DNA from: Williamsia sp. DF01-3
Lineage (GTDB): Bacteria > Actinomycetota > Actinomycetes > Mycobacteriales > Mycobacteriaceae
Direction of reading: 5' to 3'
Assembly: GCF_023051145.1 (NCBI RefSeq)
Contig: NZ_JALKFS010000005.1
Location: 1,178,001 to 1,242,000 of the forward strand
DNA length: 64,000 bases
The number at the start of each line of letters is the position of its first letter. Position 1 is the first letter of the stretch. The position numbers were made by a program, and so were the translations under genes. The notes under the pieces are model-generated. The model saw nothing but the letters and a program-made list of their open reading frames with translations. It searched no databases and was not told the DNA's origin. This document shows positions 43,845 to 63,313 of this stretch, in pieces.

Positions 43845-43916
43845 GTCAGTCGTCCGAATCTTTCTGTAGCACAGTCGATCGCGCCGGCCGTGGAGATTCT
43901 GTCAAGTAAACTTGAC
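43845..43916 (+). repeat. Dif-like composite element Z (diverged copy)
   Basis: The left part is decayed (CAGTCAGTCGTCCGAATC). The middle CTGTAGCACAGTC corresponds to the ATTGTGGCACAATC palindrome of copy B. The right end is the intact GTCAAGTAAACTTGAC palindrome (43901-43916). The stop codon of the minus-strand gene 43902-44123 lies inside it. The core arm is poorly conserved. Confidence 0.65.
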
Positions 43917-44123
43917 GCGGCGCAGGTAGAGCCACCACGCGCCGGCCCCACCCAACGGAATCATCCACACGAGCAATAGCCAAAGCCACGAACGTGTGAC
44001 GACCGGCGGTCCATTGAGGATGCTGGCAGTGGACACCATTGCCGCCGCGACCCACGCTGAAACGGGCACGAAGACAACGCAAACGACGAGTAGCGCCACT
44101 GTAACCATGTCCACCCTGGGCAC
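43902..44123 (-). CDS. Small two-span membrane protein (PLDc_N-like)
   Basis: The 73-residue product from GTG 44123 has two membrane segments (VTVALLVVCVVFVPVSAWVA and WLWLLLVWMIPLGGAGAWWL) and ends in a basic RRVKFT. The second segment resembles the PLD nuclease N-terminal (PLDc_N) domain. Its stop codon lies within the GTCAAGTAAACTTGAC palindrome of element Z. Function unknown. Confidence 0.55.
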   Translation of the reverse strand: MPRVDMVTVALLVVCVVFVPVSAWVAAAMVSTASILNGPPVVTRSWLWLLLVWMIPLGGAGAWWLYLRRVKFT

Positions 44124-44194
44124 CGTACCGAACGATCCACCGCTGGGCGTGGTTGTTGTGACTATGAAGTCGGGCTGCAGTCACTTAAACAACG

Positions 44195-44343
44195 ATATCG
44201 GTGACGGAACATGGGACCGGCGCTATGGACACCTGAACGTTCACACTGACTACGACGGCGGCTACCGACTGATCATCGGCGAACCCAAATCGACTGCCGC
44301 AATGAAGCAAACGCTAACAATGACTATGTCAGGTAAACTTGAC
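44195..44343 (+). pseudogene. Methyltransferase C-terminal remnant plus element, duplicate of 48997-49148
   Basis: About 145 bases match 48997-49148 closely. They encode the end of a class I methyltransferase (GTWDRRYGHLNVHTDYDGGY...) followed by a dif-like site. The rest of the gene is missing here. The two copies differ by a few substitutions and a 3-base gap. Confidence 0.7.
44307..44343 (+). repeat. Dif-like element I' (core and palindrome only)
   Basis: The core is 44307-44334: an 11-bp left arm ending CGCTAA, a 6-bp spacer CAATGA, and the right arm CTATGTCAGGT. It runs on into GTCAGGTAAACTTGAC (44328-44343). The upstream palindromes of the full element are absent because the methyltransferase remnant abuts. 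Gene 44388 (+) follows. Confidence 0.65.
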
Positions 44344-44387
44344 AATCTGCTGGTGGGGTTGGCTTTCGCCACCGCCGAGGAAGCCCC

Positions 44388-44870
44388 GTGCCATTCTTGC
44401 ATCGCCTGTCACATTTCGCGGCTCTCGCCGGTCTGGCATGCATGACCATTCTCATTCGCCTGTGTTTGCTGATCCTCTTCGTTGTCGAACTGACGGTCGG
44501 AGTATGGAATCAGCTGTTCCCCGAGTCGTTCTACAACGACTTCCCGACCGTCGATCTCACGCCGGCCTTCAGCGAGCACTACGCCCGGGATTTCGGTGGC
44601 GCGACGCTTGGCATCGCCTTGCTGTTGGGCCTCGCCGTCATCCGCCCCAGGGCGGCTTTTGTCATCCCTGCGGCGGCCGCCTACAGCCTCTTTTCATTGC
44701 CACACTTTGTCTTTCATCTCGGTCACATGCACAACGCATCGACGCTGGAAGCGGTCACCCTCACCACTGCCAATGCCGTGGTCGCCGCACTTGGCCTCGC
44801 GGCCATCGCATTGACCCTGCTGCGCGACCGTGCGGCATCACCGCTCGCGGTCGACTCGAACCCCATGTAG
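44388..44870 (+). CDS. Small membrane protein, unknown (four spans)
   Basis: The 160-residue product has four membrane spans (about 15-38, 64-85, 89-110, 124-146). A His-rich loop (HFVFHLGHMHNAS) lies between spans three and four, possibly near a membrane surface or metal. The GTG at 44388 has GAGGAAG upstream; an internal ATG (44442) would remove part of the first span. No family is recognised with confidence. Confidence 0.55.
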   Translation: MPFLHRLSHFAALAGLACMTILIRLCLLILFVVELTVGVWNQLFPESFYNDFPTVDLTPAFSEHYARDFGGATLGIALLLGLAVIRPRAAFVIPAAAAYSLFSLPHFVFHLGHMHNASTLEAVTLTTANAVVAALGLAAIALTLLRDRAASPLAVDSNPM

Positions 44871-44947
44871 TGACGCGTCTAATTGATGCGGACTGGGTTC
44901 TGGTGTGCGGAGAGTGCGAGCGCCACTTCGTTCGGTATTGTCCGCTT

Positions 44948-45298
44948 ATGCGGAGATTGGGGGTCGGGCTCGTGGTCGGCGGGGCTCTGTTCCTGTGTGT
45001 CGGATGTTCCAACGACCCCGGCGATCCGACGCTCGTACTGGAGATCGGCGGCGACTACGAGTTCGCCACCTACAGCGATTCCTCCGGAATCCACGATTTC
45101 GAGCAAGGGCAGACCAAGGTCATCTTGACCGGAGACGAGATCCCGGAGAGCATCTTCCTCCAGGTGTTGCCATTCCTCGATGGACGAGCAGCCGAGACGT
45201 GGTGTAAGGCAACCCTGGACGGAGTGGTCCAGTATGAAGACGGTAGCAACCACGGAGCACTGTGCTCGGAGCTCCAATCGCTGGCGGGAACCAGTTAG
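44948..45298 (+). CDS. Small predicted lipoprotein
   Basis: The 116-residue product starts MRRLGVGLVVGGALFLCVGC, a short signal with a lipobox-like LCVGC. The mature part is acidic (DPTLVLEIGGDYEFATYSDSS) with two later Cys that could pair. No domain is recognised. The stretch just upstream (44876-44895) carries a 3' remnant of another lipoprotein gene. Confidence 0.6.
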   Translation: MRRLGVGLVVGGALFLCVGCSNDPGDPTLVLEIGGDYEFATYSDSSGIHDFEQGQTKVILTGDEIPESIFLQVLPFLDGRAAETWCKATLDGVVQYEDGSNHGALCSELQSLAGTS

Positions 45299-45334
45299 AT
45301 CCCACCGAGTGAGCATATCGGCAGCGCGGTTGGT

Positions 45335-45404
45335 GGTGAATACAACTGTCTTACAACGAATTACCTGTCTCAGGTATACGCCGATAATCAACGTTACGTC
45401 CGAA
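45335..45404 (+). repeat. Dif-like element H
   Basis: The core is at 45377-45404: TACGCCGATAA, spacer TCAACG, TTACGTCCGAA. The upstream part (45335-45376) is diverged and only the general layout of a GTGA-rich segment and an ACAACGAATT segment is left. No right-hand palindrome. It lies between the lipoprotein gene (44948-45298) and the gene at 45451. Confidence 0.7.
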
Positions 45405-45450
45405 TCTGTGGTCTAGGCGTTGTAGTGGGTCGCCGCGTTAAACTTCGGGC

Positions 45451-46077
45451 ATGACCCAGCCGGATTGGCGCGCATACGAGTGGACGAAGAATGACTGGCT
45501 GGTCGGTGCGAGCTGCATTTCGGTTGTGGTGCCGGCTGAGGTCGATTCGCTCGTGTTCGAAATGGCGGACGTGGTCGACACCGAGCGATGTGATTTTGAC
45601 CGGCTCGAGAAACTAAGCCATGGTGCGACGTCTGTTCGCGGTGAGCGAGGGTCGGCGGTGGGCCTGGTTCAGGTAGAGGGTGCTGTGCTCATGCTTGAGC
45701 CGTACGGGTACCTGGGTGAGACCTATGAGTTCATGCTCCCTCTGTCGAGGGGCCGAAACATCGTGAGCTACTACGTGGGCGGGCACGGGCGTGGCACTTT
45801 CCTTTGGTACCACGAAGGCCAGGTCAAGTGCGCTTTTGACCACCATATTCCGAGCGGCCGTCGAGGGACGGACCCGGACGCCGTACTGCCCTGGCTAGAA
45901 GAGATCGGCGGATTTGGGCCCCTCTCAGAGAAAGCAGAATTTCCGGCGACCGTACACACCGAAGCTGCCGTCATGGCGCTGATGGAGCGCGTTTCGGGTG
46001 TACAGGTGACGCACTCGTTGCTCCACGACTCGACGTTCCTGACTGCACTGGTGAGACCGACTCCGGGGTCTTCCTGA
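45451..46077 (+). CDS. DUF6461-like hypothetical protein
   Basis: The 208-residue soluble protein has an alternating strand pattern. The N-terminal WTKNDWLVGASCISVVVPAEVD and middle EPYGYLGETYEFMLPLSRGRNIVSYY are similar in style to DUF6461 family proteins, which often act as immunity or effector-associated proteins. This is a tentative link. It lies between elements H and A as a one-gene unit. Confidence 0.55.
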   Translation: MTQPDWRAYEWTKNDWLVGASCISVVVPAEVDSLVFEMADVVDTERCDFDRLEKLSHGATSVRGERGSAVGLVQVEGAVLMLEPYGYLGETYEFMLPLSRGRNIVSYYVGGHGRGTFLWYHEGQVKCAFDHHIPSGRRGTDPDAVLPWLEEIGGFGPLSEKAEFPATVHTEAAVMALMERVSGVQVTHSLLHDSTFLTALVRPTPGSS

Positions 46078-46118
46078 CGGCCTTGTGGCCAGCGAACCGA
46101 GCGTGATTCCGGTTGCCT

Positions 46119-46185
46119 TTAGTCACTGGTGACGAAACACGTTGCAGCGCAATTGATTACGCCGATAATAGGTACTACCTCAGGG
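46119..46185 (+). repeat. Dif-like element A
   Basis: GTCACTGGTGAC is at 46122-46133 and TTGCAGCGCAA at 46142-46152. The core 46158-46185 has left arm TACGCCGATAA, spacer TAGGTA and right arm CTACCTCAGGG. The right arm is diverged and no GTCAAGT palindrome follows. It lies after the stop of gene 45451 and before the 3' end of a minus-strand gene. Confidence 0.8.
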
Positions 46186-46206
46186 TGGTGTTTGTGACGT
46201 CGTGGT

Positions 46207-46557
46207 TTATCCCAGCCCGTAATCGGTCCACGCCCCGAGTAGTGCGATCAAGCCGGCCGTCGCTCCCACCGCGAGCGAGTACGCCGTGCCAGCCCAGCGG
46301 GTGGGTACCGGGACCATGAACGCGATCCCGGGAACGAGTAGCACCGCCCACGCCAGCAACCAAGGAACCCAGTACGTGGCGATGAACGGCCTGTCGACCC
46401 GTCCATCCAGAGGTACTGCGGTGGGTTCCGGCAACCCCAGCCAACCCCGTGTCAGATGGGCGAGCGGGATGACGACGAGTATCCCGACTACGAAGCCGAC
46501 GATAGCGGCGGTGACGACCTGGACCTTGTCCGCACGCGTGGTGGTGACCATAGGCAT
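46207..46557 (-). CDS. Small membrane protein, unknown
   Basis: The 116-residue product has three membrane spans (VVTAAIVGFVVGILVVIPLA, WLLAWAVLLVPGIAFMV, AGTAYSLAVGATAGLIALLGA). The N-terminus is basic, suggesting a cytoplasmic start. ATG 46557 or ATG 46551 could start it. The unit lies between elements A and B. No family is recognised. Confidence 0.5.
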   Translation of the reverse strand: MPMVTTTRADKVQVVTAAIVGFVVGILVVIPLAHLTRGWLGLPEPTAVPLDGRVDRPFIATYWVPWLLAWAVLLVPGIAFMVPVPTRWAGTAYSLAVGATAGLIALLGAWTDYGLG

Positions 46558-46760
46558 ACACACTGCACGATGACCTGATGAAGGCCACGCCAAGCCCACG
46601 AGGCAGCATTTGCGCGCGAGCAGTCGAACATCGCCTCGAACACGCGGTCCTCGAGCCGTAGTCGACCGGCGACACCGTTCGACAGAAGCCCCGAAGTCAC
46701 TGTCAGCCTGGACGGTGTGACGTGCCGGGACCGCCGCGTTTAGACGAAGAGCACGGTAAG

Positions 46761-46840
46761 TTTCGTCACTGGTGACGAAATGTATTGTGGCACAATCTGT
46801 TGCGCCGATAAGATACCTCATGTCAAGTAAACTTGACATG
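46761..46840 (+). repeat. Dif-like element B (most complete copy)
   Basis: Three perfect palindromes are present: TTTCGTCAC-TG-GTGACGAAA (46761-46780), ATTGTG-G-CACAAT (46784-46796), and CATGTCAAGT-AA-ACTTGACATG (46819-46840). The dif-like core is 46801-46828: left arm TGCGCCGATAA, spacer GATACC, right arm TCATGTCAAGT. The right arm is the left half of the third palindrome. Confidence 0.85.
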
Positions 46841-47006
46841 CCGCAGGTAGGGACAGATCGCGGACTGCGGCGGCGTCTGGCAGGCTTGACCCATTGCCAA
46901 TTCTGGGTTGGCTTGACGGCCACTGGAGTCGCTTCGATTAGTGAATCCGCTGCCAGGTCGGCATCGGTGAGGTCGACGCTCGCACGACACGAACTCGAGA
47001 GCGAGG

Positions 47007-48434
47007 ATGGTTTCAATGGATCAGCATTCCGCCCCGGTTGGAACCGACGACGTGTACGCGGCTCTGCCAAGGGCGTTGGAACTGGCGACCGAATACCTGC
47101 AGGGACTGCCACACCGGCCGGTCGATGCGAGTACGAGCTATGACGAGGTCGTCGACGCACTGAGCGGGCCGTTGCCCGACCAAGGTACGAATGCGGTCGC
47201 GGTAGTCGAGCGATTGGCCGCCACTCTCGGTCCGGCAACCATTGCGTGCGCCGGCCCTCGCTACTTCGGCCTCGTCGTCGGAGGAACGCTACCCGCGGCC
47301 CTGGCTGCCGACTGGCTGGTATCGACCTGGGACCAGACCGCGTACAGCCGGATGTCGTCGCCGGCCGGCGCTGCGATCGATGCCGTCACCGAGCGCTGGG
47401 TTCTCGACGCTCTTGGGTTGCCCACGCGCGCGGCGGTCGGGTTCGTCACCGGAGCCACGGCGGGAAACGTCGTTGGGTTGCTTTCCGCACGGCACGTTCT
47501 CTTGGCGCGGCAAGGTTGGGACGTTGAGGCCGATGGGCTCGCCCAGGCGCCCCGTGTTCGCGTACTCGTGGGCGACGAGGTCCATCCCTCCGTACTGCAG
47601 GCGTTGCAGATGATCGGTCTTGGATCGCGCCGCGTCGAGCGCGTGGCGGTCGACGCACAAGGAGCGATGAGAGCCGACGCGCTCGCCGACGCGCTCGCCG
47701 CCGACTCCGACCCCGCCATCGTGTGCGCGCAGGTCGGCAACGTGAACTCCGGAGCGTGCGACCCAATGTCAGAGATCGTCGCGGCGACCCACAAGCACGG
47801 CGGCTGGGTTCACGTCGACGGCGCATTCGGACTTTGGGCTAGCGCATCGCCGCGACTGTCGGCACTCGTTCGAGGTGTCGAGTTGGCCGATTCGTGGTCG
47901 ACCGACGCACACAAGTGGCTCAACGTCCCCTACGACTGCGGCCTGGCCATTGTCGCCGACCCCCAAGCTGCTCGCTCCGCACTAGGTGCCAACACCAGCT
48001 ATCTGCCCACGAGTAGCGAGCGCGAGCCCGGCGTCCTGGTGCCCGAGATGTCCCGGCGTGCACGCGCGGTACCTGTCTACGCAGCGCTCGCCTCGCTAGG
48101 CAGGCTGGGGTTGCGACAACTGATCGAACGCTGCTGCGAGCATGCCCGCCGCCTGGCCGAGACGATGCAAGCCACCGACGGCTTCTCCGTATGCAACGAC
48201 GTGGTGCTCAACCAGGTCCTGATCCGCGCTGACGACAGCGACGAGCGCACTTGGCGTGTGGCAGAACTCGTGCGCCGCAGCGGAGAGGCGTGGGTCGCGG
48301 GAACCGAATGGCACGGTCGAGCGGCGATACGCGTGTCCTTCTCCAATTGGACGACAGCGGATAACGACCTCGACCGTCTCGCTGAAGCGCTGCGGCAATC
48401 GCTGGCGGCGGCGCGCAAAACTCAACAGGCGTAA
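47007..48434 (+). CDS. Pyridoxal-dependent decarboxylase (group II type)
   Basis: The 475-residue product has the group II decarboxylase fold, with the internal aldimine Lys in STDAHKWLNVPYDCG (about residue 303), GFVTGATAGNVVGLLSAR for the substrate/cofactor loop, and HVDGAFGLWAS. It probably decarboxylates an amino acid, such as an aromatic or acidic one. ATG 47007 has a weak upstream site; ATG 47016 is an alternative. It is the largest intact enzyme gene in the array region, between elements B and I. Confidence 0.83.
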   Translation: MVSMDQHSAPVGTDDVYAALPRALELATEYLQGLPHRPVDASTSYDEVVDALSGPLPDQGTNAVAVVERLAATLGPATIACAGPRYFGLVVGGTLPAALAADWLVSTWDQTAYSRMSSPAGAAIDAVTERWVLDALGLPTRAAVGFVTGATAGNVVGLLSARHVLLARQGWDVEADGLAQAPRVRVLVGDEVHPSVLQALQMIGLGSRRVERVAVDAQGAMRADALADALAADSDPAIVCAQVGNVNSGACDPMSEIVAATHKHGGWVHVDGAFGLWASASPRLSALVRGVELADSWSTDAHKWLNVPYDCGLAIVADPQAARSALGANTSYLPTSSEREPGVLVPEMSRRARAVPVYAALASLGRLGLRQLIERCCEHARRLAETMQATDGFSVCNDVVLNQVLIRADDSDERTWRVAELVRRSGEAWVAGTEWHGRAAIRVSFSNWTTADNDLDRLAEALRQSLAAARKTQQA

Positions 48435-48833
48435 GGCCAAGGCTGCGGCTCAGCGGCGCCGCCAGCAGGGGACGGCATTCCTGGACGTTTGCGCAGAGAA
48501 GCGCCAAGTCTGAACTTGATCGTGCTTTCTCCGGCGGTCTCGGGTTCGTCGTCGTCGATGTTCTCCGGGTGCGGATTTCGCGTGGCTCCCGCTGTCGAGT
48601 CCCGGTCTCGTGTCGATCCCCCTGGCCTTTGTCCTGGGCGTCGTCGGCACGTTCGTCGGCCGAGGCAACCCAGAGGACCCGTGTACGCAGGCCGAGATAG
48701 AGGTCCGGTCACTCACCGTTGTCGGCGTCGAGACGGCCGTGACGCAAAGAACGCGCCGACGCGCAACAGAATCGCGAAACAATCTTCGCCGCGGCGGATC
48801 GCCATTTTGCATCCGCTCGTCGAGTCCGAAGAC
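48435..48833. other. Gene-free stretch between decarboxylase and methyltransferase remnant
   Basis: About 400 bases with no supported gene. The sequence includes short open stretches on both strands but none with a ribosome-binding site or a recognisable product. It may be decayed coding DNA from the missing N-terminal part of the methyltransferase. Confidence 0.4.
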
Positions 48834-49109
48834 ATCCGCACGCTGCGGGTCCCCGCCGACATGCGCGACGGTGTCCTGATCGCGAACTGGCGGCGGCCAC
48901 AGGCCTACCTCGACCCCGCTGTCCGCGCCTGCTGCTCAGGCCTGGCCCAAATCGACCAGCACGCGGTCGACGCCGGGATCCGACGACTGAGAACTGACAT
49001 CGCTGACGGAACATGGGACCGGCGCTATGGACACCTGAACACCCGCACTGACTACGACGGCGGCTACCGACTGATCATCGGCGAACCCAAATCGACTGCG
49101 CCGCAATGA
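48834..49109 (+). pseudogene. Class I SAM-dependent methyltransferase, C-terminal fragment
   Basis: The last ~90 codons of a methyltransferase are readable (ANWRRPQAYLDPAVRACCSG, then TDIADGTWDRRYGHLNTRTD). The pattern DxxxGxWxxRxxxL...DxGYRL is the typical end of actinobacterial class I methyltransferases. No N-terminal SAM-binding domain is found upstream. It ends at element I. The final 145 bases are duplicated at 44195-44343. Confidence 0.7.
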
Positions 49110-49110
49110 A

Positions 49111-49148
49111 GCAACCGCTAATATAGATTATGTCAAGTAAACTTGACA
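49111..49148 (+). repeat. Dif-like element I (core and palindrome)
   Basis: The core is 49111-49138: left arm GCAACCGCTAA, spacer TATAGA, right arm TTATGTCAAGT. The last arm extends into the TGTCAAGT-AA-ACTTGACA palindrome (49131-49148). The right arm is the best match to the family consensus. The upstream palindromes are replaced by methyltransferase remnant. Confidence 0.75.
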
Positions 49149-49194
49149 ACCCTGTCGGACGCCTGTCTTCAACTGCTTGCGGTCCGACGCCATC

Positions 49195-50613
49195 TCAATC
49201 GTTGGTGCCGAGCCAGGCTGTAACGTCTCGCAGCGTCAGTTCGCCCGTGCGTTCGCGTAGCTCATCACGAATCTGTTGCGCGGTGATGCTGCCGCGCTTC
49301 ATTGCCCGATGGGCCACGAACAACGCGGCGGTATCGATCGCCAACCCGAGCGCGGCAACCAGTGCCTCGCGGTCGTCCTGCCGAAAAATTGTCTCGCCGC
49401 GGTCGGTCGGTTCCCGCGCGATCATCCGGTTGATGAACAGCCATTGACGCGGCCGAAAACCTGGTTGTTCCTCGCGCTCATAGGCGCCGGTGTAGGTACC
49501 CAGCGTCGTGATTTTTGCACCCTTGGCGCCTTTGGCTACGCCAGTCGCGTCACCGATGACGAGCCACTGATCCGTGCCGGGTTCAGTGATCCGGAAATCC
49601 TCTCGCGGTTCGCGCTCGTTGAACTTGCCGGAGGCGTCCATATCCTCGACGGTGTAACCGATCTCGCGCAGGACGTCGCGCACTGCGTCCTGCAACGGAA
49701 GTCCTGTACCGCTGAGCAACTGCTTAACCGGCGTATCGACGGCAGCCGCAGCACGGTCTCGTAGTTCCCGGATCCGCTCATGGTGAGCAAGCGTCTCGCC
49801 GGCGAAGCGCCGACGTTCAGTCTCGATGTCGTCCGCCACCTGTTGTTCGTCGTAGCTGAGCCATTTGTAGTTCTCGATCCACCCGGGTAGATCCGGGAAT
49901 TTTACGGGATCGATGCTGTGCCAGTCTCGCAACACCGCTTGCCACCAGCCCGCGATATCACTCACGTCGTCGGGCAGGAACCACACGCCGACGTTGTCGC
50001 GGACGTAGCGCCCCGCCAACGCCAAGTGTTCGGGTCCCTCGGCGAGCGTCTGATACGTCGGCACTTCAGCGCCGTCGCTGTCACGGAACCGAACACCGAA
50101 CGGGTACTGGCGTGTCTGGGCGGTGTCGACGAGTTGGTCGCGAAGTTCTTCGAGGCGGTCATCTAGCGGCATGGTGCCCGCACGAATTATTCGGCCCGGT
50201 TCGTACGCACTCGCCAGCACGCGCTGGTTTCCGGCAGTGTCGATAAGCACATCGACAGGCATCTCCCGCACCCCATCTGCTTCGCTGAAGATATGCAGCA
50301 CGAACAGATGTGGGGGCAGGACCTGTCCTCGTGGTGCTTTGAGACGGCGTATCGAAGGCGCGGCCGAAGTTTGCGGGGGCGGCGGCCCCGCGATGGGCTC
50401 GGTTGTGATGATCGCATCCCACTCCGTGGAGTCGACTTGGGCCAGCGACGTGATGAACTGGTAGCTGCCAGGCAGGTGGGCCACTATCGGGTACCAGCGA
50501 TGCATCAGTGGGGCGTCTTCTGCACGGGAGCCGACGTTGGGGTCGCCGTCAAGCAGGAGAAGGAGGCGGGGCCGAGGCTGCGGATTGAGAACGTGCGGGA
50601 CCGGAGTGTTCAT
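49195..50613 (-). CDS. Large hypothetical protein with a possible PD-(D/E)XK nuclease-like C-terminus
   Basis: The 472-residue protein is soluble. The N-terminal half is Pro/Ala-rich. Around residues 360-420 a segment with WLVIGDATGVAKGAKGAK and LGTYTGAYEREE, followed by PRQWLFINRMI and a helix-rich tail (LAIDTAALFVAHRAMKRGSI), resembles restriction-endonuclease-like domains where a conserved Asp precedes a Lys-rich strand. That would fit a defence protein, but I cannot confirm the active-site residues. ATG 50613 is chosen over an upstream in-frame start because the preceding 34 residues look spurious. Confidence 0.55.
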   Translation of the reverse strand: MNTPVPHVLNPQPRPRLLLLLDGDPNVGSRAEDAPLMHRWYPIVAHLPGSYQFITSLAQVDSTEWDAIITTEPIAGPPPPQTSAAPSIRRLKAPRGQVLPPHLFVLHIFSEADGVREMPVDVLIDTAGNQRVLASAYEPGRIIRAGTMPLDDRLEELRDQLVDTAQTRQYPFGVRFRDSDGAEVPTYQTLAEGPEHLALAGRYVRDNVGVWFLPDDVSDIAGWWQAVLRDWHSIDPVKFPDLPGWIENYKWLSYDEQQVADDIETERRRFAGETLAHHERIRELRDRAAAAVDTPVKQLLSGTGLPLQDAVRDVLREIGYTVEDMDASGKFNEREPREDFRITEPGTDQWLVIGDATGVAKGAKGAKITTLGTYTGAYEREEQPGFRPRQWLFINRMIAREPTDRGETIFRQDDREALVAALGLAIDTAALFVAHRAMKRGSITAQQIRDELRERTGELTLRDVTAWLGTND

Positions 50614-50680
50614 GTCCTCAGCATCGCAGGAGACACCGCTTAGGCCGCCATACACTCGCTCGTGACGACAATCATCGACG

Positions 50681-51163
50681 CTATCGAAGTTCCGCACGTT
50701 CCGGCGTTCGCACACTCAGACAGCCGGTCGCGGAACTCTCCCACGCGGTGTGCGTGGGAATCCGCAGCCGTCGCTGCAACCGGCTGAACGAGGGACGCCC
50801 GGCCACATCGAGTACGACGATCTCGCCATCGAGAATTGCCTGCCGGCCGCCCAATGCCGCTGGCACACCAGCAACGATCTCGGGGAAGTGGGAGGAAAAG
50901 TTGTTGCGGTGCCTACTCCACACATACGTTCTCGCAGAATCGGTTTCGACGAGCGCCCGAGCCCCGTCCCACTTGAATTCAAACGCCCATCCCTCCCCAG
51001 ATGGGGCTTCGCCCAGGGTGGCGAGCATTGGATCCGGAACAGGCGGCACCCGTTCAGGATGCCCCGCAGGCAGGGACGGCACACGTACAGCGGCCCGGCC
51101 ACGATCCCGCCGGCGGGGAAGGGCAACGACACGTACAGGTGCTGGCGCGACACCCGCAAACAC
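50681..51163 (-). pseudogene. ATP-dependent DNA ligase fragment
   Basis: The reading contains the nucleotidyltransferase motif FEFKWDGARALVET (active-site Lys in K-x-D-G) and AILDGEIVVLD, typical of ATP-dependent DNA ligases such as LigC/LigD. The domain stops after about 110 residues (LRIPTHTAWESSA...) and the rest of the ligase (OB-fold) is missing. No Ku gene is nearby. It is best read as a leftover from an insertion or deletion. Confidence 0.72.
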
Positions 51164-51190
51164 GCCGGGTGCCTTGCCCTCGAATCAGTG

Positions 51191-51222
51191 CTGGGCACGA
51201 CGCCATAGGGGTGTGGATCAGG
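51191..51222 (+). repeat. 32-bp direct repeat, right copy
   Basis: This is the partner of 41953-41984 with a single mismatch (T for A at the centre). Just before it the truncated ligase gene ends on its 5' side; just after it the small HhH-like gene begins. The two copies bracket 9.2 kb. Confidence 0.8.
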
Positions 51223-51315
51223 GGTTGATGATGCCGATCCGGTCGTCGAACGCTCCTACGATGGTGACGGTGTCCCGAACCCGGTGCACCGAGCCGAACA
51301 CAGGAGGTCATTTTC

Positions 51316-55078: not shown

Positions 55079-55189
55079 TGGCGGCAGAATCGCACACCTA
55101 TTTTTGTGGAAGCTGTGTCTGAGACGCCCGGTACTTTCGACAGTGTCGTGGTGACGCATCCGAGTGTCGGCCCAACGAGGGGAGCTGTT

Positions 55190-56038: not shown

Positions 56039-56171
56039 GGGCAACCCACAGCGCTATGGGCGAGGACCAGCCGATGAGGTGGTTCAACCGTCACCTTGCC
56101 CGAAGAAGTAGCGCGCCGAAGGCGGGCGCGGCGCGGGACCACTGTCCTTCCGAATAGACGACAGCTTCACA

Positions 56172-57170: not shown

Positions 57171-57246
57171 ATCGCCCTCTCTTACTTCGCTCCAACAGCG
57201 ACCCCGTGCCTGCACCACGAGCGTACCGCTTCCTCACCCAACAGCA

Positions 57247-57309
57247 TATCTGTTTAATTACCACAAACGTATGGCGCGACATTATAGAAACAGATAGTAT
57301 CGATGTCAA
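57247..57309 (-). promoter_or_regulatory. Perfect sigma-70 consensus promoter with flanking inverted repeat
   Basis: On the minus strand TTGACA (57304-57309) is followed after exactly 17 bases by TATAAT (57281-57286), a perfect consensus rarely seen in high-GC actinobacteria. TATCTGTTT (57247-57255) and AAACAGATA (57288-57296) form a perfect 9-bp inverted repeat that brackets the -10 box, so a regulator is likely to block transcription. It drives the gene at 56172-57170. Confidence 0.8.
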
Positions 57310-57654
57310 GAGAGAAGGGTTGCATGTGTTGGAACGCACTGCTACGATTCTTGTAGTCGCCAGGGAAGAACGGTCGATCGGGAAGGTCACTCCGAAGCCA
57401 TCGGAGCGGACAGTGGCCCGGTTTACTTGACTTCGTCTCGCCTGTGCGGCGTGGGAGCGGTAGCTGAGGACAGAGCAAGCGGAATCCGAAGCGCAGGTTG
57501 CCGGTCGTGTCTGTGTCGACATCGCCGGGGCCTGAATCCGTGAACAGCAAGAGGGCGTCCACTTATGGGAGTGGGCGCCCTTCTTGCTGCTGCCCGCTGA
57601 AACCCGAGTCCCTGAACCGATTGCACGTAACCATAGACGGGAAACAACAGCACA

Positions 57655-58077
57655 ATGACAACCCCCGAGCAACGGTGGAGTCTCCGCAATCGCGATCGAG
57701 TTGCCGAGCCACGCGACACGACGCTTTGGCTTGAATACGAAGTGGCCGGAACTTACAACATGGGAGCGGACTGGTCCGACGAGACCGCTGACGAATTGCT
57801 GCGCGAGTACCTCCGGACCTACTCACCCAGCGACCGTGAGATCCAGCTGCCGGCCGGTTACGTCCACATAACGTGGTCTGTACAGGGTGACCAGGCAGGG
57901 CCCGAGTTGGCGCCGTTCCAACGCAGCCACTACCCGGATAGGCCCGACCGGGAAAACTTCCTAACCTTCTTTGAATGGCCAAGGAACGTGCACACAGACG
58001 AGCGCCTCGACTTCAACACTCTCCCGGTCCGTCGCCTGCAGTGGAACGAAACCCACCATGACCCAGGGGGTTCGTAA
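57655..58077 (+). CDS. Small hypothetical protein
   Basis: The 140-residue acidic soluble protein (MTTPEQRWSLRNRD start) has a beta-rich C-terminal half rich in aromatic residues (ENFLTFFEWPRNVHTDERLDF). No family is recognised. The upstream 57560-57640 contains a stem-forming GC-rich segment. It precedes a diverged dif-like element (58351). Confidence 0.5.
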   Translation: MTTPEQRWSLRNRDRVAEPRDTTLWLEYEVAGTYNMGADWSDETADELLREYLRTYSPSDREIQLPAGYVHITWSVQGDQAGPELAPFQRSHYPDRPDRENFLTFFEWPRNVHTDERLDFNTLPVRRLQWNETHHDPGGS

Positions 58078-58350
58078 GCGAAGCAACTGGGTGGCACCCC
58101 GCGCCGATGCAACCATGCCTCCATCTGGCCGGCCTGATCGCGGCCTACGACCATGAGGACCGCTTTACCCCGCTCGGCGAATAGAGGACCCCGCTGCAAC
58201 TATCCGCCAGCAACCGCGACCCGGTCCACATCTACTCCATAGTCGATCCGCGCGGGATCTCCCACCGGCGGCAACGACCTCGAACGAGACGACCACCCGT
58301 CGAACTGCTCTGCGGAACGGTTGGTCAAACCCCGGACATGTTTGGGTATT
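58078..58350. other. Gene-free stretch
   Basis: About 270 bases without a supported gene. A short open stretch (HLAGLIAAYDHEDRFTPL, about 58111-58185) could be the tail of a lost gene. Confidence 0.35.
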
Positions 58351-58410
58351 CGTTACTGGAAGCGAAAGGCATTGCAGTGCAATGAGAACTTGCAACGAGA
58401 CGTGTTCAGT
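58351..58410 (+). repeat. Dif-like element L (diverged copy)
   Basis: CGTTACTGGAAGCGAAA corresponds to the CGTCACTGGTGACGAAA of good copies, ATTGCAGTGCAAT (58371-58383) is a perfect palindrome at the expected place, and AACTTGCAA-CGAGAC-GTGTTCAG lies where the core should be. It is degraded in the core but has the right layout and spacing. It lies between the genes at 57655 and 58520. Confidence 0.55.
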
Positions 58411-58519
58411 GGGACGAATTGCCGGGCGCATGTTCGGGTGCCACTGATTGAGCGGTCGGGCCCGTTCGTTTTGGTGTGGCTCGTGGTGAGGTCCGCAGTG
58501 TTGCCGGTACCGTCGCTGT

Positions 58520-59197
58520 ATGGCCTACACCGCCGAGCAGTTGCGTGGCCTCGTCGACGCCTGCGAACAGTTCCGCGGCTCCCGGGCGCCGTCGGGCTAC
58601 CGCGAAGGCTTGGCCCTCTGTGTGATCGACTCGATCCAATCGACAGGGGTTAGGTATTCCAGTGTCGAGAAGGTCGTCACCCGCTATCGTGCGTACCGCC
58701 GCGAGCAGGGTGGTGACCCGAACCTCGACGGTGTCCTTGAGTTGCTGGCCACCTTCGATGAGCTAGATGGCCCGGAGGGGTGGGCATGCAAGATCGGCAA
58801 CAACAATCGCACCTCAAGCCGCAGTGGGGTTCTCAAGTCCCAGGTGATCGGTGATGCAGCCAGCGTGCTCGACGAAGCGGGGATCCGTACCACCGCCGAC
58901 CTTCGGGCGGCGGCCGAGGACGAGGCGCAGCTCGCAATTATCGAGGCGGCTTGGCGCGCGATGGCCGGTCAAAAAAGCGGGATCACCTGGCACTACATGC
59001 AGATGCTGGCCGGGATCCCGGGCGTGAAGCCAGATCGGATGATCTGCCGATTCATCGCCGACTCATTGGGACTCACTCGCCGCGGCGTCACGCCGCCGTT
59101 CGCGCTGAAGATCCTGACGGCCGCAGCGAAGGAGATGGGCATGTCGCCTACCGATCTGGACCACGCTGTGTGGCAATTTCAGCGAAGCCGTAAGTAG
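58520..59197 (+). CDS. HhH-like hypothetical protein
   Basis: The 225-residue all-helical protein has the segment AGIPGVKPDRMICRFIADSLG near residue 165-185, similar to the helix-hairpin-helix of HhH-GPD DNA glycosylases, but no catalytic Lys/Asp pair is clear. The N-terminal part (AYTAEQLRGLVDACEQF) is helical. A DNA-binding role is plausible. The ATG at 58520 is the first in the frame. It precedes element C. Confidence 0.6.
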   Translation: MAYTAEQLRGLVDACEQFRGSRAPSGYREGLALCVIDSIQSTGVRYSSVEKVVTRYRAYRREQGGDPNLDGVLELLATFDELDGPEGWACKIGNNNRTSSRSGVLKSQVIGDAASVLDEAGIRTTADLRAAAEDEAQLAIIEAAWRAMAGQKSGITWHYMQMLAGIPGVKPDRMICRFIADSLGLTRRGVTPPFALKILTAAAKEMGMSPTDLDHAVWQFQRSRK

Positions 59198-59248
59198 TGA
59201 CCGCGCCCGGGATCCTGTCGCCTGTCACGCCCGGTATCAGGGTACCGT

Positions 59249-59315
59249 TACGTCACTGGTGACGAAACATATTGCTGCGCAATCGGTTACGCCGATAATA
59301 TAGATTACGTCGGCA
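59249..59315 (+). repeat. Dif-like element C
   Basis: CGTCACTGGTGACG is at 59251-59264, a diverged ATTGCTGCGCAAT palindrome follows (59271-59283), and the core 59288-59315 has left arm TACGCCGATAA, spacer TATAGA and right arm TTACGTCGGCA. No right-hand palindrome. Two minus-strand genes follow. Confidence 0.8.
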
Positions 59316-59331
59316 GGGACTAAAGAGTCGG

Positions 59332-59781
59332 TTAGTCACCAACGCTGGGTCCTGCTCCGGGGCGCGTGGTGCCGCGGGCGGCATCGATGAGATCGACCGC
59401 GTCTGTGAGTGTTAGGCCGGAATGGGACTCGCGCAATTCCTTGACGGCGCGGACCCTGTCGGGGACGCTCTGAACGATCCGCTGCACGTCCTGGGTGGGA
59501 ACGTCGGTGGGCGACAGGTGGACTTTGGGTGGTGTGTGCCGAGTTCTCCATGTTGTCACTGCGGAATAGGCGTACCAGATGACCGCGACCACCCACAGGG
59601 CAGCAGTGAACCAGTTCCATGCCGACGCATCCGAGGTCACCGATTCGAGAACTGACGGACCGAACCCGACGAGAACAATCGAGCCAAGTAGATAGCGCCA
59701 TCGTTCGAGTTGGGCGATTCTGTCACTGTCGTACCACCGACGTCGCATCCCTCGATCGTCCCACGCGAATCCAGCCCCCAT
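59332..59781 (-). CDS. Small membrane protein with L7/L12-like C-terminal segment
   Basis: The 149-residue product has a short basic N-terminus, two membrane spans (YLLGSIVLVGFGPSVLE and WNWFTAALWVVAVIWYAYSAV) and a soluble C-terminal tail. The tail segment VRAVKELRESHSGLTLTDAVDLIDAAR resembles the ribosomal protein L7/L12 C-terminal helix-turn-helix motif seen in some regulatory domains. ATG 59781 is chosen because the longer in-frame start overlaps the next gene and lacks similarity. Confidence 0.55.
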   Translation of the reverse strand: MGAGFAWDDRGMRRRWYDSDRIAQLERWRYLLGSIVLVGFGPSVLESVTSDASAWNWFTAALWVVAVIWYAYSAVTTWRTRHTPPKVHLSPTDVPTQDVQRIVQSVPDRVRAVKELRESHSGLTLTDAVDLIDAARGTTRPGAGPSVGD

Positions 59782-59785
59782 GGTC

Positions 59786-60370
59786 TCAACGGTTGCGACG
59801 GCGGGCGACAAGTAGGTATGCGGCAACGGCAACAGCGAGGACTGAAGTCGCCACGGACGCAACCACCCACGGCAATCGTTCTGAGGATGTGTCGGCCTCA
59901 TCAGATGACGCCTGCGAGAGTCTCAATCCCGGGCCCGCGGACGTTGATGGATCCCATGACGCCGGCCCAGGCCGTCGTGAGAGAAAGGAGAAGCTGCCGG
60001 AAATGGGGTCCCCACCGGTCAGAACGGCTTTGTAGCGCACTTCGTAGCGGTCTGCCGGTGCTTGCGGTGACGACACGGGTGATGTCACGAACGGGCGGCT
60101 CATTGTCCGGCCGGATCGGGTGACCGAGCCACTGGGGTGCTGCAGGATGCCGGGCCCATCGACCGTCAGAAAGAAGACATCTGGGCCAATGTCCTTGGAA
60201 AAAGTAACCGCCACCTCTGAGGGGGCGACGTCGATCGTGGCGCCGTTGGCAGGCGTCGTCGACACCACCACGGGGTACGGGCCCGCGGCTGCCGCTCCGG
60301 TACAGCCGAGCGTCAACACAAGTAGCGCGACAGTTGCCCATGTCATGACACGCCTGGTCACGCGATCCAT
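59786..60370 (-). CDS. CopC-domain-like secreted membrane-anchored protein
   Basis: The 194-residue product has a signal-like N-terminus (VMTWATVALLVLTLGCTGAAAA), a CopC-like beta domain (VVVSTTPANGATIDVAPSEVAVTFSKDIG), and a C-terminal membrane span with basic tail (SVLAVAVAAYLLVARRRNR). CopC/YcnJ-type domains bind copper outside the cell, but the N-terminal His of canonical CopC is missing. Copper binding is therefore doubtful. It lies directly upstream of the membrane gene at 59332-59781 on the same strand, 4 bases apart. Confidence 0.65.
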   Translation of the reverse strand: MDRVTRRVMTWATVALLVLTLGCTGAAAAGPYPVVVSTTPANGATIDVAPSEVAVTFSKDIGPDVFFLTVDGPGILQHPSGSVTRSGRTMSRPFVTSPVSSPQAPADRYEVRYKAVLTGGDPISGSFSFLSRRPGPASWDPSTSAGPGLRLSQASSDEADTSSERLPWVVASVATSVLAVAVAAYLLVARRRNR

Positions 60371-60660
60371 CGGATATGTGCTGAACACGAAGGCATTTTG
60401 GCACACAGTGGGACGTCCGAGCAGGAGATCGACCCACGGTTTGTCGCGTTGACGGCCAAGACCAGACGCGTCATCAGCCTGGCCGCGCCCAGGACGTCGC
60501 AACTGCGATGGCGATCAGCGTGACAATCACACACGACATCTGAGGGCAAGGTCCATCGGACGTGCGACCTCATCCAACTCACTCATCACGCGTGTAGTGG
60601 ATGCGGGGCTGCTGTACGCGCTGATTAGTGGTCGAAGGAAACACATTCGTTCGCGTTGTG

Positions 60661-60710
60661 TTTCGTCGCTGGTGACGAAAATGATCAGCATTGGCCTCGG
60701 CGCGTATGTT
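60661..60710 (+). repeat. Dif-like element D (partial)
   Basis: TTTCGTCGCTGGTGACGAAA (60661-60680) is the first palindrome with one mismatch. The second palindrome and core are not recognisable beyond GGCGCGTATGTTGTCGCGG. It is about 185 bases before element E, with no gene between. Confidence 0.55.
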
Positions 60711-60845
60711 GTCGCGGTAGCTCTCGGCCGCCATCGGTACCGTCGCCACTGCGGCAGGGAGCGCGCGTTGTCACGGTTCCCACCTTCCCCGGGACTTAGC
60801 GTTCCGTTTGTCTGACCATGGCAAATCGGATGCGATCAATGATGC

Positions 60846-60911
60846 ATTTCGTCACTGGTGACGAATGGCGTTGCAGCACAATCAGTTACGCGATAATGTA
60901 CCTTATGTCGC
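60846..60911 (+). repeat. Dif-like element E
   Basis: TTCGTCACTGGTGACGAA (60846-60863), GTTGCAGCACAAT (near 60868-60880), and core 60884-60911 with left arm TTACGCGATAA, spacer TGTACC and right arm TTATGTCGCCC. One C is missing in the left arm relative to other copies. The right arm's TTATGT is the canonical XerD-type start. Confidence 0.8.
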
Positions 60912-60932
60912 CCCAGCCCAGAGTGCCTGGCG

Positions 60933-61337
60933 CTAACTGGGAGTGTCGTCGGCGACGTTTGTGGGCAAGCCCGTTCCGTATGGGTCGAGAACCGATGTCG
61001 TGCGGGCGCCCCAGCGTTCATGTGCCGACTGGCGGGACATCCCTGCTGCGCGGCCGATCACCGCCCATGTTGCACCCTGAACACGCAGAACAGTCACCGT
61101 CTCGAGACCGTCGAGTCCCGCTGCCAGCTGCACTCGTAATGAGACCAGCTGCCAGGCGATCGCCCGTTCGCCCAGCCTCTCCGTTGTCTGCTCGGCCTCC
61201 CATTCGGGGGTTCCCGGAAGTGGCCCCGTGCCGATTACGGCATCGGCGAACCGGCCCGATTCGATCGCTGCGCCGTCGATCACCGCACGAACGCCTCTGT
61301 CGATGTCGCATCGGCAAGCCTCCTCGATCAGAGACAC
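60933..61337 (-). CDS. Small helix-turn-helix protein
   Basis: The 134-residue product has a C-terminal helix-turn-helix-like segment (GATWAVIGRAAGMSRQSAHERWG, residues about 85-107), similar to proteins common in Gordonia and Rhodococcus. It is likely a transcriptional regulator. The start is GTG 61337 with AAAGGGG about 6 bases upstream. Two palindromes with GTCARG half-sites lie at 61351-61400 just upstream, so autoregulation is likely. Its stop is 22 bases from element E. Confidence 0.65.
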   Translation of the reverse strand: MSLIEEACRCDIDRGVRAVIDGAAIESGRFADAVIGTGPLPGTPEWEAEQTTERLGERAIAWQLVSLRVQLAAGLDGLETVTVLRVQGATWAVIGRAAGMSRQSAHERWGARTTSVLDPYGTGLPTNVADDTPS

Positions 61338-61350
61338 ATCAACCCCTTTC

Positions 61351-61400
61351 GTCAGGTATAGCCTGACGCTGGTTGTGAGTCTTGTCAAGCCTGGCCTGAC
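61351..61400 (-). promoter_or_regulatory. Two GTCARG palindromes and a -35 box upstream of the HTH gene
   Basis: GTCAGG-TATAG-CCTGAC (61351-61367) and GTCAAG-CCTGG-CCTGAC (61384-61400) lie upstream of the GTG at 61337. TTGACA on the minus strand (61383-61388) overlaps the second palindrome. The half-sites GTCAAG/GTCAGG are the same as in the right-hand palindrome of the dif-like elements. They are probable operators of the HTH protein. Confidence 0.6.
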
Positions 61401-61491
61401 GCAATGTGATGCGGCGTGATCTTGTTCAGCCGTTGCTGTTTCGTGTGCCTTCGGGGCGCTGTGCGATTGATTGGCCGAAGAGTAGGCCACG

Positions 61492-62043
61492 ATGGAGACC
61501 ATGATGCGTCGGACACTTGACTTCGGCACTCCACTGCCAGACGGCTGGAGGGAACTTACCAGTAGCGAAGACACCGCATACTGGGCGACCTTCACTGACA
61601 AGTTCGGCGAGTTGAGGCCAGGAGTAAACCCGGAAAGCTGGCCGGCGGTAGTCGAGTCGGTCCCATCGGTGACTTTCGATCTCGATGTTAGTGAGCCAGC
61701 GACTTGGGCAACGCAAATGGACGCGGTGAACGCCGAAGCTCTCCGGTGCTTCGTCACCAAGTTCACGGACGACACGGACTGGATCGTTCTGAACTGGCGA
61801 CACCCAGGATATGCACTCGATGTCGGCGTCCACGCGCTCACGCCTGACACTGAGTGGAGGGTGCCTGTTCATCCGGACGGGGACTACTACATTTTCACAC
61901 GGCCGGATCTCAGTGAAGGTACGTTCGGACATCCCTGGGAGCAGACGCTGTGTGTATTCGGACCAAGGCTGGTTGGAAGCTTGGGCCAAACGCTGGCAAC
62001 GTGGCTTCCGATTAAGCGCCGCGACGGCAAACCGCCCGCTTAG
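61492..62043 (+). CDS. DUF2716-like hypothetical protein
   Basis: The 183-residue soluble protein has a Trp/Asp-rich core (WATFTDKFGELRPGVN, SWPAVVESVPSVTFDLD) and ends with an acidic/aromatic segment, resembling DUF2716 family proteins. The link is by pattern and needs a profile check. It is divergent from the HTH gene. The ATG at 61492 has an in-frame Met two codons later (61501). Confidence 0.5.
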   Translation: METMMRRTLDFGTPLPDGWRELTSSEDTAYWATFTDKFGELRPGVNPESWPAVVESVPSVTFDLDVSEPATWATQMDAVNAEALRCFVTKFTDDTDWIVLNWRHPGYALDVGVHALTPDTEWRVPVHPDGDYYIFTRPDLSEGTFGHPWEQTLCVFGPRLVGSLGQTLATWLPIKRRDGKPPA

Positions 62044-62065
62044 AGGCGCAGGTGACGCCAGGCTA

Positions 62066-62132
62066 GGCGTCACTGGCAACGAAATATATTGCAGCGCAAT
62101 CGATAGCGCCGGTAAGATATCTTAAGTCAGTT
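62066..62132 (+). repeat. Dif-like element F
   Basis: CGTCACTGGCAACG (62068-62081; palindrome with two changes), ATTGCAGCGCAAT (62088-62100; perfect) and core 62105-62132 with left arm AGCGCCGGTAA, spacer GATATC and right arm TTAAGTCAGTT. The stop codon (62122-62124) of the minus-strand gene is inside the right arm. Confidence 0.75.
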
Positions 62133-62580
62133 GTCCGAGTGTTGCCACGACCTCGCGAGTGCGGGGGCGGGTCCAAACCAGGGTTCCTTCGGCGTTTTCA
62201 AGGCGTAGTAAGCCGCCGTCGTCATCATGTGGCCACGCTACGTTGGTGTGGCCCGCTGCATCCTGTGTCAGCTGGGTGAGCCACTGGGTGACCTCAGTGG
62301 GTGATTGTTCGATTCGCCATGTCGTGCCGCCGCCTAGGCCGCCGGTCGTCTTGTCGAGGTAGATCCAGACGTAGACCGTGGTGTATCCGTCCGAGTCGGG
62401 CTCCCGGGCGATCTCCCAGGCCACGCGTCGTGCTTTATTGCTGAATTGACGGAGGTCGAGATCATGGCAGATTGCGCGCAAGGCCTCGGCCCACACTCCG
62501 GTGACGACGTCTCCGTCAGCCGTTGGTGCGCGATCGTCGGGCGTCCATTCGACTAGAAGCGGTTCCATGTGGCCTGTCAT
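62122..62580 (-). CDS. Small hypothetical protein
   Basis: The 152-residue acidic soluble protein (N-terminal MEPLLVEWTPDDRAPT at 62568 or MTGHMEPLL at 62580) has a helical middle and a C-terminal strand-rich half (GLLRLENAEGTLVWTRPRTREVVATLGQLT). No family is recognised. The stop codon lies in the core of element F. An immunity-like role is possible but unproven. Confidence 0.5.
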   Translation of the reverse strand: MTGHMEPLLVEWTPDDRAPTADGDVVTGVWAEALRAICHDLDLRQFSNKARRVAWEIAREPDSDGYTTVYVWIYLDKTTGGLGGGTTWRIEQSPTEVTQWLTQLTQDAAGHTNVAWPHDDDGGLLRLENAEGTLVWTRPRTREVVATLGQLT

Positions 62581-62599
62581 CTATTGAATGTAGCGTGCT

Positions 62600-62669
62600 T
62601 AGATGGGTGTAATACGCGTATGTTTTTGTGGCACAGCATGTTAAGACGACAACGACAGCCACGTCGGAC
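62600..62669 (+). repeat. Dif-like element J (diverged)
   Basis: TTGTGGCACAGCATGTTAAGACG (62626 on) matches the middle of element B. The expected core position has AAGACGACAA-CGACAG-CCACGTCGGA (62642-62669), with CACGTC where others have TACGTC. It separates the two minus-strand genes at 62122 and 62705. Low similarity, so only the layout supports it. Confidence 0.45.
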
Positions 62670-62704
62670 TCGTTCCGGCGCTTCGGTGCGTGGCTTGCTG
62701 CTGT

Positions 62705-63163
62705 CTAATTGATGCGGACTAGTTCGGCTGTTGGGCAGTATCGCCATTGGCCGTTCTCGAGGACGAAATCAAACAGCGCGCGGGCTGGTTCTGACATCCC
62801 GGTGCGCACAACTGCGGTCAGGGTGCCTGAGCTTGCGCCTGTGACCTCAGGGTCGCCTCGACTGACGACCGAGATTGGAGAGAACGTCGCTCTGCTCGGT
62901 TGCGGCTCGTCGATGTGGTTTGCGCTCGAACAGAGGATGTCGGCGTAGGCGTTAGCGTCTCGAGTCTGTGAGATGGCAATGAGCCGGTCGAAGGCCGAGT
63001 TGACGCCGTTGACGATCTCCGCTGACGCAGTCGTCGACGGAGTCCTCGCCGGGGTGTGGCCATCATCGGTACAGCCACCAAGCGCGGCACAGGCTGCTAG
63101 GCCTACCGTTAGAACGGCGGCCAGCTGAGCTGGGTGGAATCCAGCCTGTATCTGAGCGCTCAT
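62705..63163 (-). CDS. Small predicted lipoprotein
   Basis: The 152-residue product has a signal with a lipobox (VGLAACAALGGC) and a soluble domain with a Cys pair (Cys near 77 and near the end), suggestive of a disulphide and of the DUF4878 type of mycobacterial lipoproteins. The last residues VRIN-stop lie on a segment that recurs at 44876-44895. It lies between elements J and G. Confidence 0.6.
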   Translation of the reverse strand: MSAQIQAGFHPAQLAAVLTVGLAACAALGGCTDDGHTPARTPSTTASAEIVNGVNSAFDRLIAISQTRDANAYADILCSSANHIDEPQPSRATFSPISVVSRGDPEVTGASSGTLTAVVRTGMSEPARALFDFVLENGQWRYCPTAELVRIN

Positions 63164-63244
63164 CTTCGAAGATTAACCCCGAGTAAATTGAGACGGCCCA
63201 CCGCGGCCGTGGGTGTTGCGCAACTCGGTGTGAATCCCGACTGT

Positions 63245-63313
63245 GTTTTGTCACTGGTGACGAAACACATTGCGCTCCAACAGGTCGCCGCCGAAAATCT
63301 ATACTACGTCAGC
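63245..63313 (+). repeat. Dif-like element G
   Basis: TTTTGTCACTGGTGACGAAA (63245-63264; one mismatch between arms). The second palindrome is decayed (ATTGCGCTCCAAC). Core 63286-63313: left arm GCCGCCGAAAA, spacer TCTATA, right arm CTACGTCAGCT. It lies after the lipoprotein gene's 5' end and before the gene at 63429. Confidence 0.7.

Follow-up and report, generated by a model that had tools for sequence, protein, structure and literature searches.

How might genes move one by one between plasmids, chromosomal islands and the chromosome terminus when no integrase gene accompanies them? The question is raised by a stretch of 64,000 nucleotides of Williamsia sp. DF01-3 (the window; C5:1178001-1242000, within the 5.25-Mb contig C5 of a genome of six contigs, here G000), in which elements resembling dif, the site recombined by XerC and XerD, separate small genes. 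The original prediction, made from these letters, was an array of up to 13 such elements forming a cassette system that uses the host Xer recombinases. Judging by sequence comparisons, including those with eight genomes of the same genus (G001-G008; counts out of nine comprise these and G000), we consider it likely that the array consists of integrase-free gene cassettes moved by host XerC/XerD between co-oriented dif-like sites. One part of this reading, that the units between sites represent gene cassettes gained and lost between cores, is well supported by the comparisons described below; from the same comparisons we infer the use of XerCD and a circular intermediate.

Dif-like cores and the units between them

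The core of a Xer site, with an arm ending in GATAA, a 6-bp spacer and an arm TTAYGTC, is matched ten times in the window with up to 2 mismatches, versus 2.23 ± 1.48 matches expected (none of 100 shuffles reaches ten). Nine of these matches, every one on the plus strand as had been claimed, fall within 44313-63310; the tenth, at 34906, is outside the array and looks like a chance match. The predicted layout was thereby borne out at nine of the 13 places (six of the nine being full hairpin composites) and did not stand at the other four, where we found a decayed right half (43845), hairpin halves (58351 and 60661) and, at 62600, no support, the composite profile described below having no match there up to E 10. 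The element placed at 45335 does have a core, without a single mismatch, albeit at 45383.

In the whole genome the core pattern (≤1 mismatch) is found at 24 places vs 3 for the reversed pattern, mostly on C5 near 0.64, 1.22-1.24, 1.57-1.61 and 5.18 Mb and on C1 and C2, two contigs of 176 kb and 152 kb that are probably plasmids. One place, C5:3208051, is almost opposite dnaA (C5:401 kb) and belongs to the chromosomal dif, CGCCGATAAGAAACATTATGTCAAGTA (C5:3208047 onward), 27 bp of which are identical in 9/9 genomes of the genus, preceded by the same upstream stretch at varying distance. A search of the family detected the dif pattern (≤1 mismatch) in 78 of 121 genomes, as a single copy in 69 of them (G003 is outside this sample), and the dif of F. 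alni, as quoted in PMC3025954, has the same form. Taken together, the conserved 27-bp site, the family pattern and the likeness of the F. alni site argue that the arrays are built on the dif type of their host.

Read from left to right, a full composite has the palindrome TTTCGTCACTGGTGACGAAA first, then a short inverted repeat, ATTGYNGCRCAAT, followed by the XerC arm TTACGCCGATAA, the 6-bp spacer and TTAYGTC, and some copies end in a palindromic right half AAGTAAACTTGACA. The elements are mosaics, in which several left halves are joined at the core to several right halves; the elements at 44313 and 49117 have a 154-bp repeat in common. A composite profile was built from 24 seeds, five of which come from the window (46118, 46761, 59248, 60847, 63246) and so match by construction; its E values range from 3e-19 to 6e-13 at these five and at 62068, and its weaker matches are given in Table 1.

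Two differences between related sequences capture single units. Over 18 kb, C2 and contig C10 of G008 are nearly identical (4 substitutions and 5 small gaps) apart from one difference of 546 bp, which runs from core to core: C2 has two sites (125594 and 126140), bounding the unit with spacers CAATGA and TAGATA, and G008 C10 has a single one, in which the left side of the 125594 site is joined to the right side of the 126140 site. In this one-site form, identity switches between the spacer and the fourth base of TTAYGTC. At the dif of G006, an 810-bp LysE-type unit (bounding spacers GAAACA and GATACC) is located exactly between dif and the next core and is followed by a stretch with a pyridoxal phosphate (PLP)-dependent decarboxylase gene; in G000 the PLP stretch comes directly after dif and the LysE unit is absent, and G005 and G008 have neither of them beside dif. 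In addition, a DUF6461 unit of the window (45378-46168) recurs core to core, at 84.8%, among other neighbours in G008 C15.

The array is contained in a strain-specific island of 24 kb (about 42494-66693 in window coordinates). In G005, G006 and G008, matching sequence ends near 42479-42494 and returns near 66693-66697, with an extra G006 match at 42492-42724, and the place of the island is taken by 47-270 bp in 6/8 relatives and by 6-7 kb of other DNA in 2/8 (plus-strand matches >150 bp, compared at this one place only). Three outcomes had been set beforehand as refuting the cassette reading, and none of them occurred: the copies are linked to units gained or lost from core to core (546 bp in C2, 810 bp at the G006 dif), the array is situated in the island and not at core genes, and the chromosomal dif does not differ in kind from the array elements.

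Reassortment of half sites was assessed in a set of 80 distinct sites from G000, its relatives and other members of the family, some entries of which may be background (C5:1481790 is without any other feature). A left flank, compared beyond the hairpin zone, is shared by 24 pairs of sites, a right flank by 39, and both by 3. When the 36 right-only and 21 left-only pairs were cut to 15 and 7 close ones by removing those with <90% identity, short matches and B-B pairs (for the B unit, see below), the retained pairs showed high identity on the shared side and a drop towards background across the core. Orientation of the sites is uniform on 12/12 contigs other than C5 that have at least two listed sites (including 6/6 on C2 and 6/6 on G006 C8) and for the eight window sites in the list, and C5 as a whole has both orientations, in separate clusters.

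The accessory palindrome

The palindrome TTTCGTCACnnGTGACGAAA, with up to 2 substitutions, adjoins 46 of the 80 listed sites, a share that is inflated because many loci were found via the hairpin. In G000 it occurs at 21 places (≤2 mismatches), one of them beside dif and 20 on C1, on C2 or in the element clusters of C5. It is also present 281-368 bp upstream of the native dif in 9/9 genomes of the genus (0 to 3 mismatches), with a second copy at -538 to -556 from dif in G001, G002 and G003; a regex for similar hairpins detected none directly adjoining the native dif cores (0/9). We infer that some protein may bind the palindrome and assist Xer recombination.

Two other interpretations of the palindrome were considered and dropped. 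That it is a general feature of dif is not supported by 30 loci with the dif pattern from 10 other genera (among which L164 covers just 38 bp upstream), where no 20-bp copy with up to 4 mismatches was found nearer than 1477 bp; its inner 14 bp, with 2 mismatches, occur there at -226 (L156), -561 (L159), -617 and +100 (L174), and +1480 (L177). That it is a terminator does not agree with its sequence, as the 5' side is T-rich and the 3' side A-rich, the reverse of an intrinsic terminator. A separate observation concerns the XerD side of dif, which in several other genera (loci L155-L184) carries a sequence like CTGCATATTGCATCAGATGCA; the flank of two Gordonia sites (L078, L079) is similar to it, and a second accessory motif is possible.

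As to the distribution of the composite, a profile search of 401 genomes of the family produced matches (E ≤0.001) in at least 63 of them, including 9/9 of the genus (at most 12 candidates were scored per genome, so the counts are lower bounds, and many weak matches span the dif core only). Strong full-length matches outside the genus belong mainly to the genus of G. bronchialis and Gordonia sp. KTR9, with a few in three others. A scan of 84,980 species with the hairpin pattern retrieved 26 stretches: 15 from Williamsia, 5 from Gordonia, 2 from a Kitasatospora-titled record, and 4 further ones that are probably chance matches. Carriage by phages was rejected, as the 79-base consensus has no match in phage records; in one viral contig the hairpin pattern was matched, and the 100 bases that follow contain no dif core.

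A proposed mechanism and its alternatives

In the mechanism proposed here, the elements would be Xer sites composed of a XerC arm CGCCGATAA, a 6-bp spacer and a XerD arm TTAYGTC, many of them with an accessory module on the XerC side, and each interval between two co-oriented sites would be a mobile cassette. Recombination of the direct repeats by host XerC/XerD would release a circle with the cassette and one site, and this circle could then integrate wherever another such site exists, whether on plasmids, in chromosomal islands or at dif. Through successive rounds of gain and loss, arrays would form and the left and right half sites would be reassorted. A palindrome-bound protein may favour the synapsis of co-oriented sites. 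For the C2 event with its unlike spacers, one strand pair might be exchanged at the XerD border and replication might complete the process. The more far-reaching proposal is of a third kind of cassette system, integrase-free, with one directly repeated Xer site per cassette, where cassettes are moved singly by host XerCD despite unlike spacers (XerD-border exchange, the other strand being settled by replication) under the control of a putative TTTCGTCACnnGTGACGAAA-binding protein that also acts at the native Williamsia dif. We advance this proposal tentatively, giving it somewhat less than an even chance.

A number of observations weigh against movement by host XerC/XerD as outlined above. To the right of dif, homology between G000 and G005/G008 resumes only 2.3 kb away in the latter two and 4.5 kb away in G000. 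The right end of the PLP stretch at dif is unexplained, since a core (≤3 mismatches) is lacking there; likewise, the identity of the window copy of this stretch (46803-48829) stops before the next core at 49117. The C2 unit is flanked by unlike spacers, and known XerCD exchange requires equal or nearly equal ones. The inheritance of spacers is mixed, as they are equal in 5/7 left-only and 4/15 right-only pairs (and in 160 of all 3160 pairs); spacers thus appear to travel often, albeit not always, with the left half, and a uniform spacer rule was rejected, since the spacer follows the left half in both the C2 and the G006 dif events, yet not across all pairs. A weaker composite on C1 at 24571 (plus), outside the 80-site list, opposes the other C1 copies. 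As regards the recombinases, a XerC-like protein is intact in 9/9 genomes (for that of G000 the XerC model is best, with 301.9 bits, below the cut-off of 335), and xerD, a single open frame in 8/8 relatives, is split over two frames in G000 (L046:1447-2423, C5 near 3403000), which may reflect either a sequencing error or a real loss. Finally, other tyrosine recombinases are encoded in the B units and on some element-bearing contigs, such as G006 C8, C2, G007 C16, G003 C5 and G008 C12.

The latter observation bears on the alternative that the cassettes are moved by a tyrosine recombinase dedicated to them, either like that of the B unit or plasmid-borne, the likeness to dif being due to shared ancestry of the sites. 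B units, with recombinase, helix-turn-helix (HTH) and weakly recombinase-like genes, are indeed found inside three elements of G000, and the recombinase matches of G006 C8 (at 56-59 kb) are inside the span of its array. On the other hand, B ends are limited to the three G000 copies in the scanned sequences and elements are present in 9/9 genomes of the genus; B inserts between the hairpin and the XerC arm, off the core; the G006 unit is located exactly between a true dif and the next core; and the window island is without such a gene, PF00589 (E ≤0.001) being absent from both window and island and nearest on C5 at 1.07 and 1.47 Mb. We therefore regard a dedicated recombinase as unlikely. Quite unlikely, too, is that cer-like dimer-resolution sites of plasmids have piled up through plasmid fusion and homologous recombination, single cassettes being immobile. 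Such accumulation would fit the consensus matches, one or two per plasmid, in nine plasmids (eight from Gordonia, one from Rhodococcus) and the DNA that the window island shares with C1 and C2; yet it does not account for the presence or absence of single units with core-exact ends or for the strong reassortment at the core, both of which call for site-specific events.

An integron-like system, in which sites fold as single strands and are acted upon by an integron integrase, would also give an array whose genes are small and mostly unknown and whose composite sites contain inverted repeats, and hairpin 1 makes standard pairs in 95.7% of cells. Nevertheless, the integrase gene is absent from the island, the core equals dif, and gene strands are mixed (24 along the site and 17 against it in 18 short intervals, by approximate gene calls). 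Covariation in 26 aligned sites does not exceed that of shuffles, a result which disfavours rather than excludes this alternative, as hairpin 1 hardly varies and the power is low. Overall, we consider an integron-like origin very improbable.

Nested units, cassette genes and known systems

The B unit is a 3.37-kb sequence present in G000 in three copies (99.4-99.6% identical), each inserted inside a type A element at the same point, between the hairpin and the XerC arm, with differing flanks. It encodes a tyrosine recombinase, a Cro/C1-type HTH protein and one further product whose similarity to recombinases is weak (E 0.002), and may be viewed as a dif-site hunter built on a tyrosine recombinase. 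Other genomes have, at the same insertion point, a second unit family whose ends resemble CTGGTAACGAGACGTGTTGAAGTGAGACGAGT and ACTCGTCCTACT. Its members are found in tandem inside dif-like elements; one of them (L084) contains two genes that resemble, by eye, those of a HAD phosphatase and a methyltransferase. This family is maybe another cassette system with its own site. The window place 58351, which is missing from gap-free regex scans, looks like a remnant of such a unit, as the hairpin half is followed there by AACTTGCAACGAGACGTGTT, aligning to a site II end (score 42; next best in the window 26).

Table 1. Sites, cassette genes and nested units (positions refer to the window unless a contig or locus is named; gene calls are from a simple codon-based script, with approximate starts)
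Feature	Position	Strand	Basis
Strain-specific island holding the array	42494..64000; right end beyond the window, near 66693	.	homology breaks
Decayed element, right half TTCTGTCAAGTAAACTTGACG, XerC arm lost	43855..43914	+	2 mismatches; very weak profile match (E 0.26)
Dif-like core, spacer CAATGA, left half type D, palindromic right half	44313..44341	+	2 mismatches; very weak profile match at 44312 (E 4.1)
Dif-like core, spacer TCAACG, left half without type A hairpin	45383..45400	+	0 mismatches; weak profile match at 45332 (E 0.019)
Cassette gene, DUF6461, 208 aa	45451..46077	+	Pfam 1.3e-33
Full composite, hairpins and core 46164-46181, spacer TAGGTA	46118..46192	+	core pattern, profile
Cassette gene, predicted 114 aa, no family found	46207..46551	-	gene call, family scan
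Full composite, hairpins, core 46807-46824, spacer GATACC, palindromic right half	46761..46839	+	core pattern, profile
Stretch with PLP-dependent decarboxylase gene 47016-48434	46803..48829	+	99.5% copy of DNA right of chromosomal dif
Dif-like core, spacer TATAGA, left half type D, palindromic right half	49117..49149	+	core pattern; weak profile match at 49089 (E 0.0024)
IS256/Mutator-type transposase, inside the long gap 49134-59294	53758..55041	+	Pfam 4.4e-131
Hairpin half then site II end, no dif core	58349..58420	+	read by eye, partial profile match (E 0.061), alignment
Full composite, core 59294-59311, spacer TATAGA	59248..59320	+	core pattern, profile
Hairpin palindrome alone	60661..60685	+	partial profile match (E 0.021, hairpin only), palindrome scan
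Full composite, core 60892-60909, spacer TGTACC	60847..60911	+	core pattern, profile
Cassette gene, DUF2716, 183 aa	61492..62043	+	Pfam 7.9e-37
Composite, core 62111-62128, spacer GATATC	62065..62132	+	core pattern, profile
Cassette gene, predicted 152 aa, no family found	62122..62580	-	gene call, family scan
Composite, core 63293-63310, spacer TCTATA	63246..63320	+	core pattern, profile
B unit copies	C5:1605594-1608965 (L034:5594-8965); C5:635785-639157; C5:5179091-5182462		
Second-family units	L084:6086-7770; L064:6441 and 6735; window 58349-58420		

With respect to the genes between sites, a defence role was considered and not retained, as PADLOC matched among 10 proteins just the PLP enzyme (SspA/DndA-type). 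None of the named plasmids was found at near sensitivity to carry window cassettes, the only matches being to IS256 and, weakly, to the PLP stretch. Next to the dif copy of that stretch, a segment of ~2.5 kb on its right (C5:3210073-3212546, L027:10073-12546) is without a match in G005/G008 and has no recognisable core. A unit on C2 (L024:11761-12705) contains HTH_17 and PIN_3 genes, possibly a toxin-antitoxin pair carried as a cassette.

Several known systems resemble parts of what is described here. Integrative mobile elements exploiting Xer (IMEX, e.g. the CTX phage) enter the chromosome at dif by means of host Xer and without an integrase of their own. The LysE unit of G006, located exactly between dif and the next core, may be a comparable case (the right end of the PLP stretch at dif being unexplained); however, the Williamsia units are plain gene cassettes that occur in arrays, including ones on plasmids and ones distant from dif. 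Integron arrays consist of co-oriented sites and small genes of unknown function with modular gain and loss, all of which has its counterpart in Williamsia, except that here the island lacks an integrase gene, the core is dif-like and gene strands are mixed (the recombinases on other contigs were not typed as intI). Plasmid resolution sites such as cer and psi combine a Xer core with an accessory sequence on the XerC side, where Williamsia sites likewise carry their conserved accessory sequence. Accessory control of cer-like sites involves binding by ArgR/PepA or a comparable protein and selectivity of resolution; unlike these sites, the Williamsia palindrome is short, about 43 bp from the core, and its sites form arrays.

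The closest likeness is to the dif (pdif) modules of Acinetobacter, described in three reports as genes between XerC-6bp-XerD sites on plasmids and chromosomes that are shuffled as units, with insertion sequence (IS) elements targeting the XerC side (PMC13141974, PMC10132070, PMC12907356). Williamsia units are also bounded by XerC-6bp-XerD sites like the chromosomal dif. In Acinetobacter, however, neighbouring sites are inverted, with C and D modules alternating, recombining sites have the same spacer or one that is one base off, and a single module is not excisable because its sites are inverted, although module pairs can be lost (PMC13141974); another study reports no deletion between sites and no accessory sequences beside two of them (PMC11705084). 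In Williamsia, by contrast, sites are direct (on the 12 contigs other than C5 and in the window, with one opposed copy on C1), unit ends have unlike spacers (CAATGA/TAGATA, GAAACA/GATACC), an accessory module accompanies many sites, and one unit was gained or lost on its own. The B unit recalls the IS1202-family dif hunters, whose insertions are reported to lie 5 bp away from the XerC arm, in a single orientation (PMC10132070), in that it also inserts next to the XerC arm, but it is 3.37 kb long and has tyrosine recombinase genes instead of a DDE transposase. Among the best-ranked results from the open-access PMC literature (subscription literature being outside this scope), dif modules are reported for Acinetobacter and none for Williamsia or Gordonia.

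The combination of direct sites, an accessory sequence and a captured single-unit difference, in a phylum other than that of Acinetobacter, makes Xer cassette movement directly testable in soil bacteria. The association of a palindrome with dif in Williamsia is undescribed, and a gene pool common to plasmids, chromosomal islands and the terminus is indicated.

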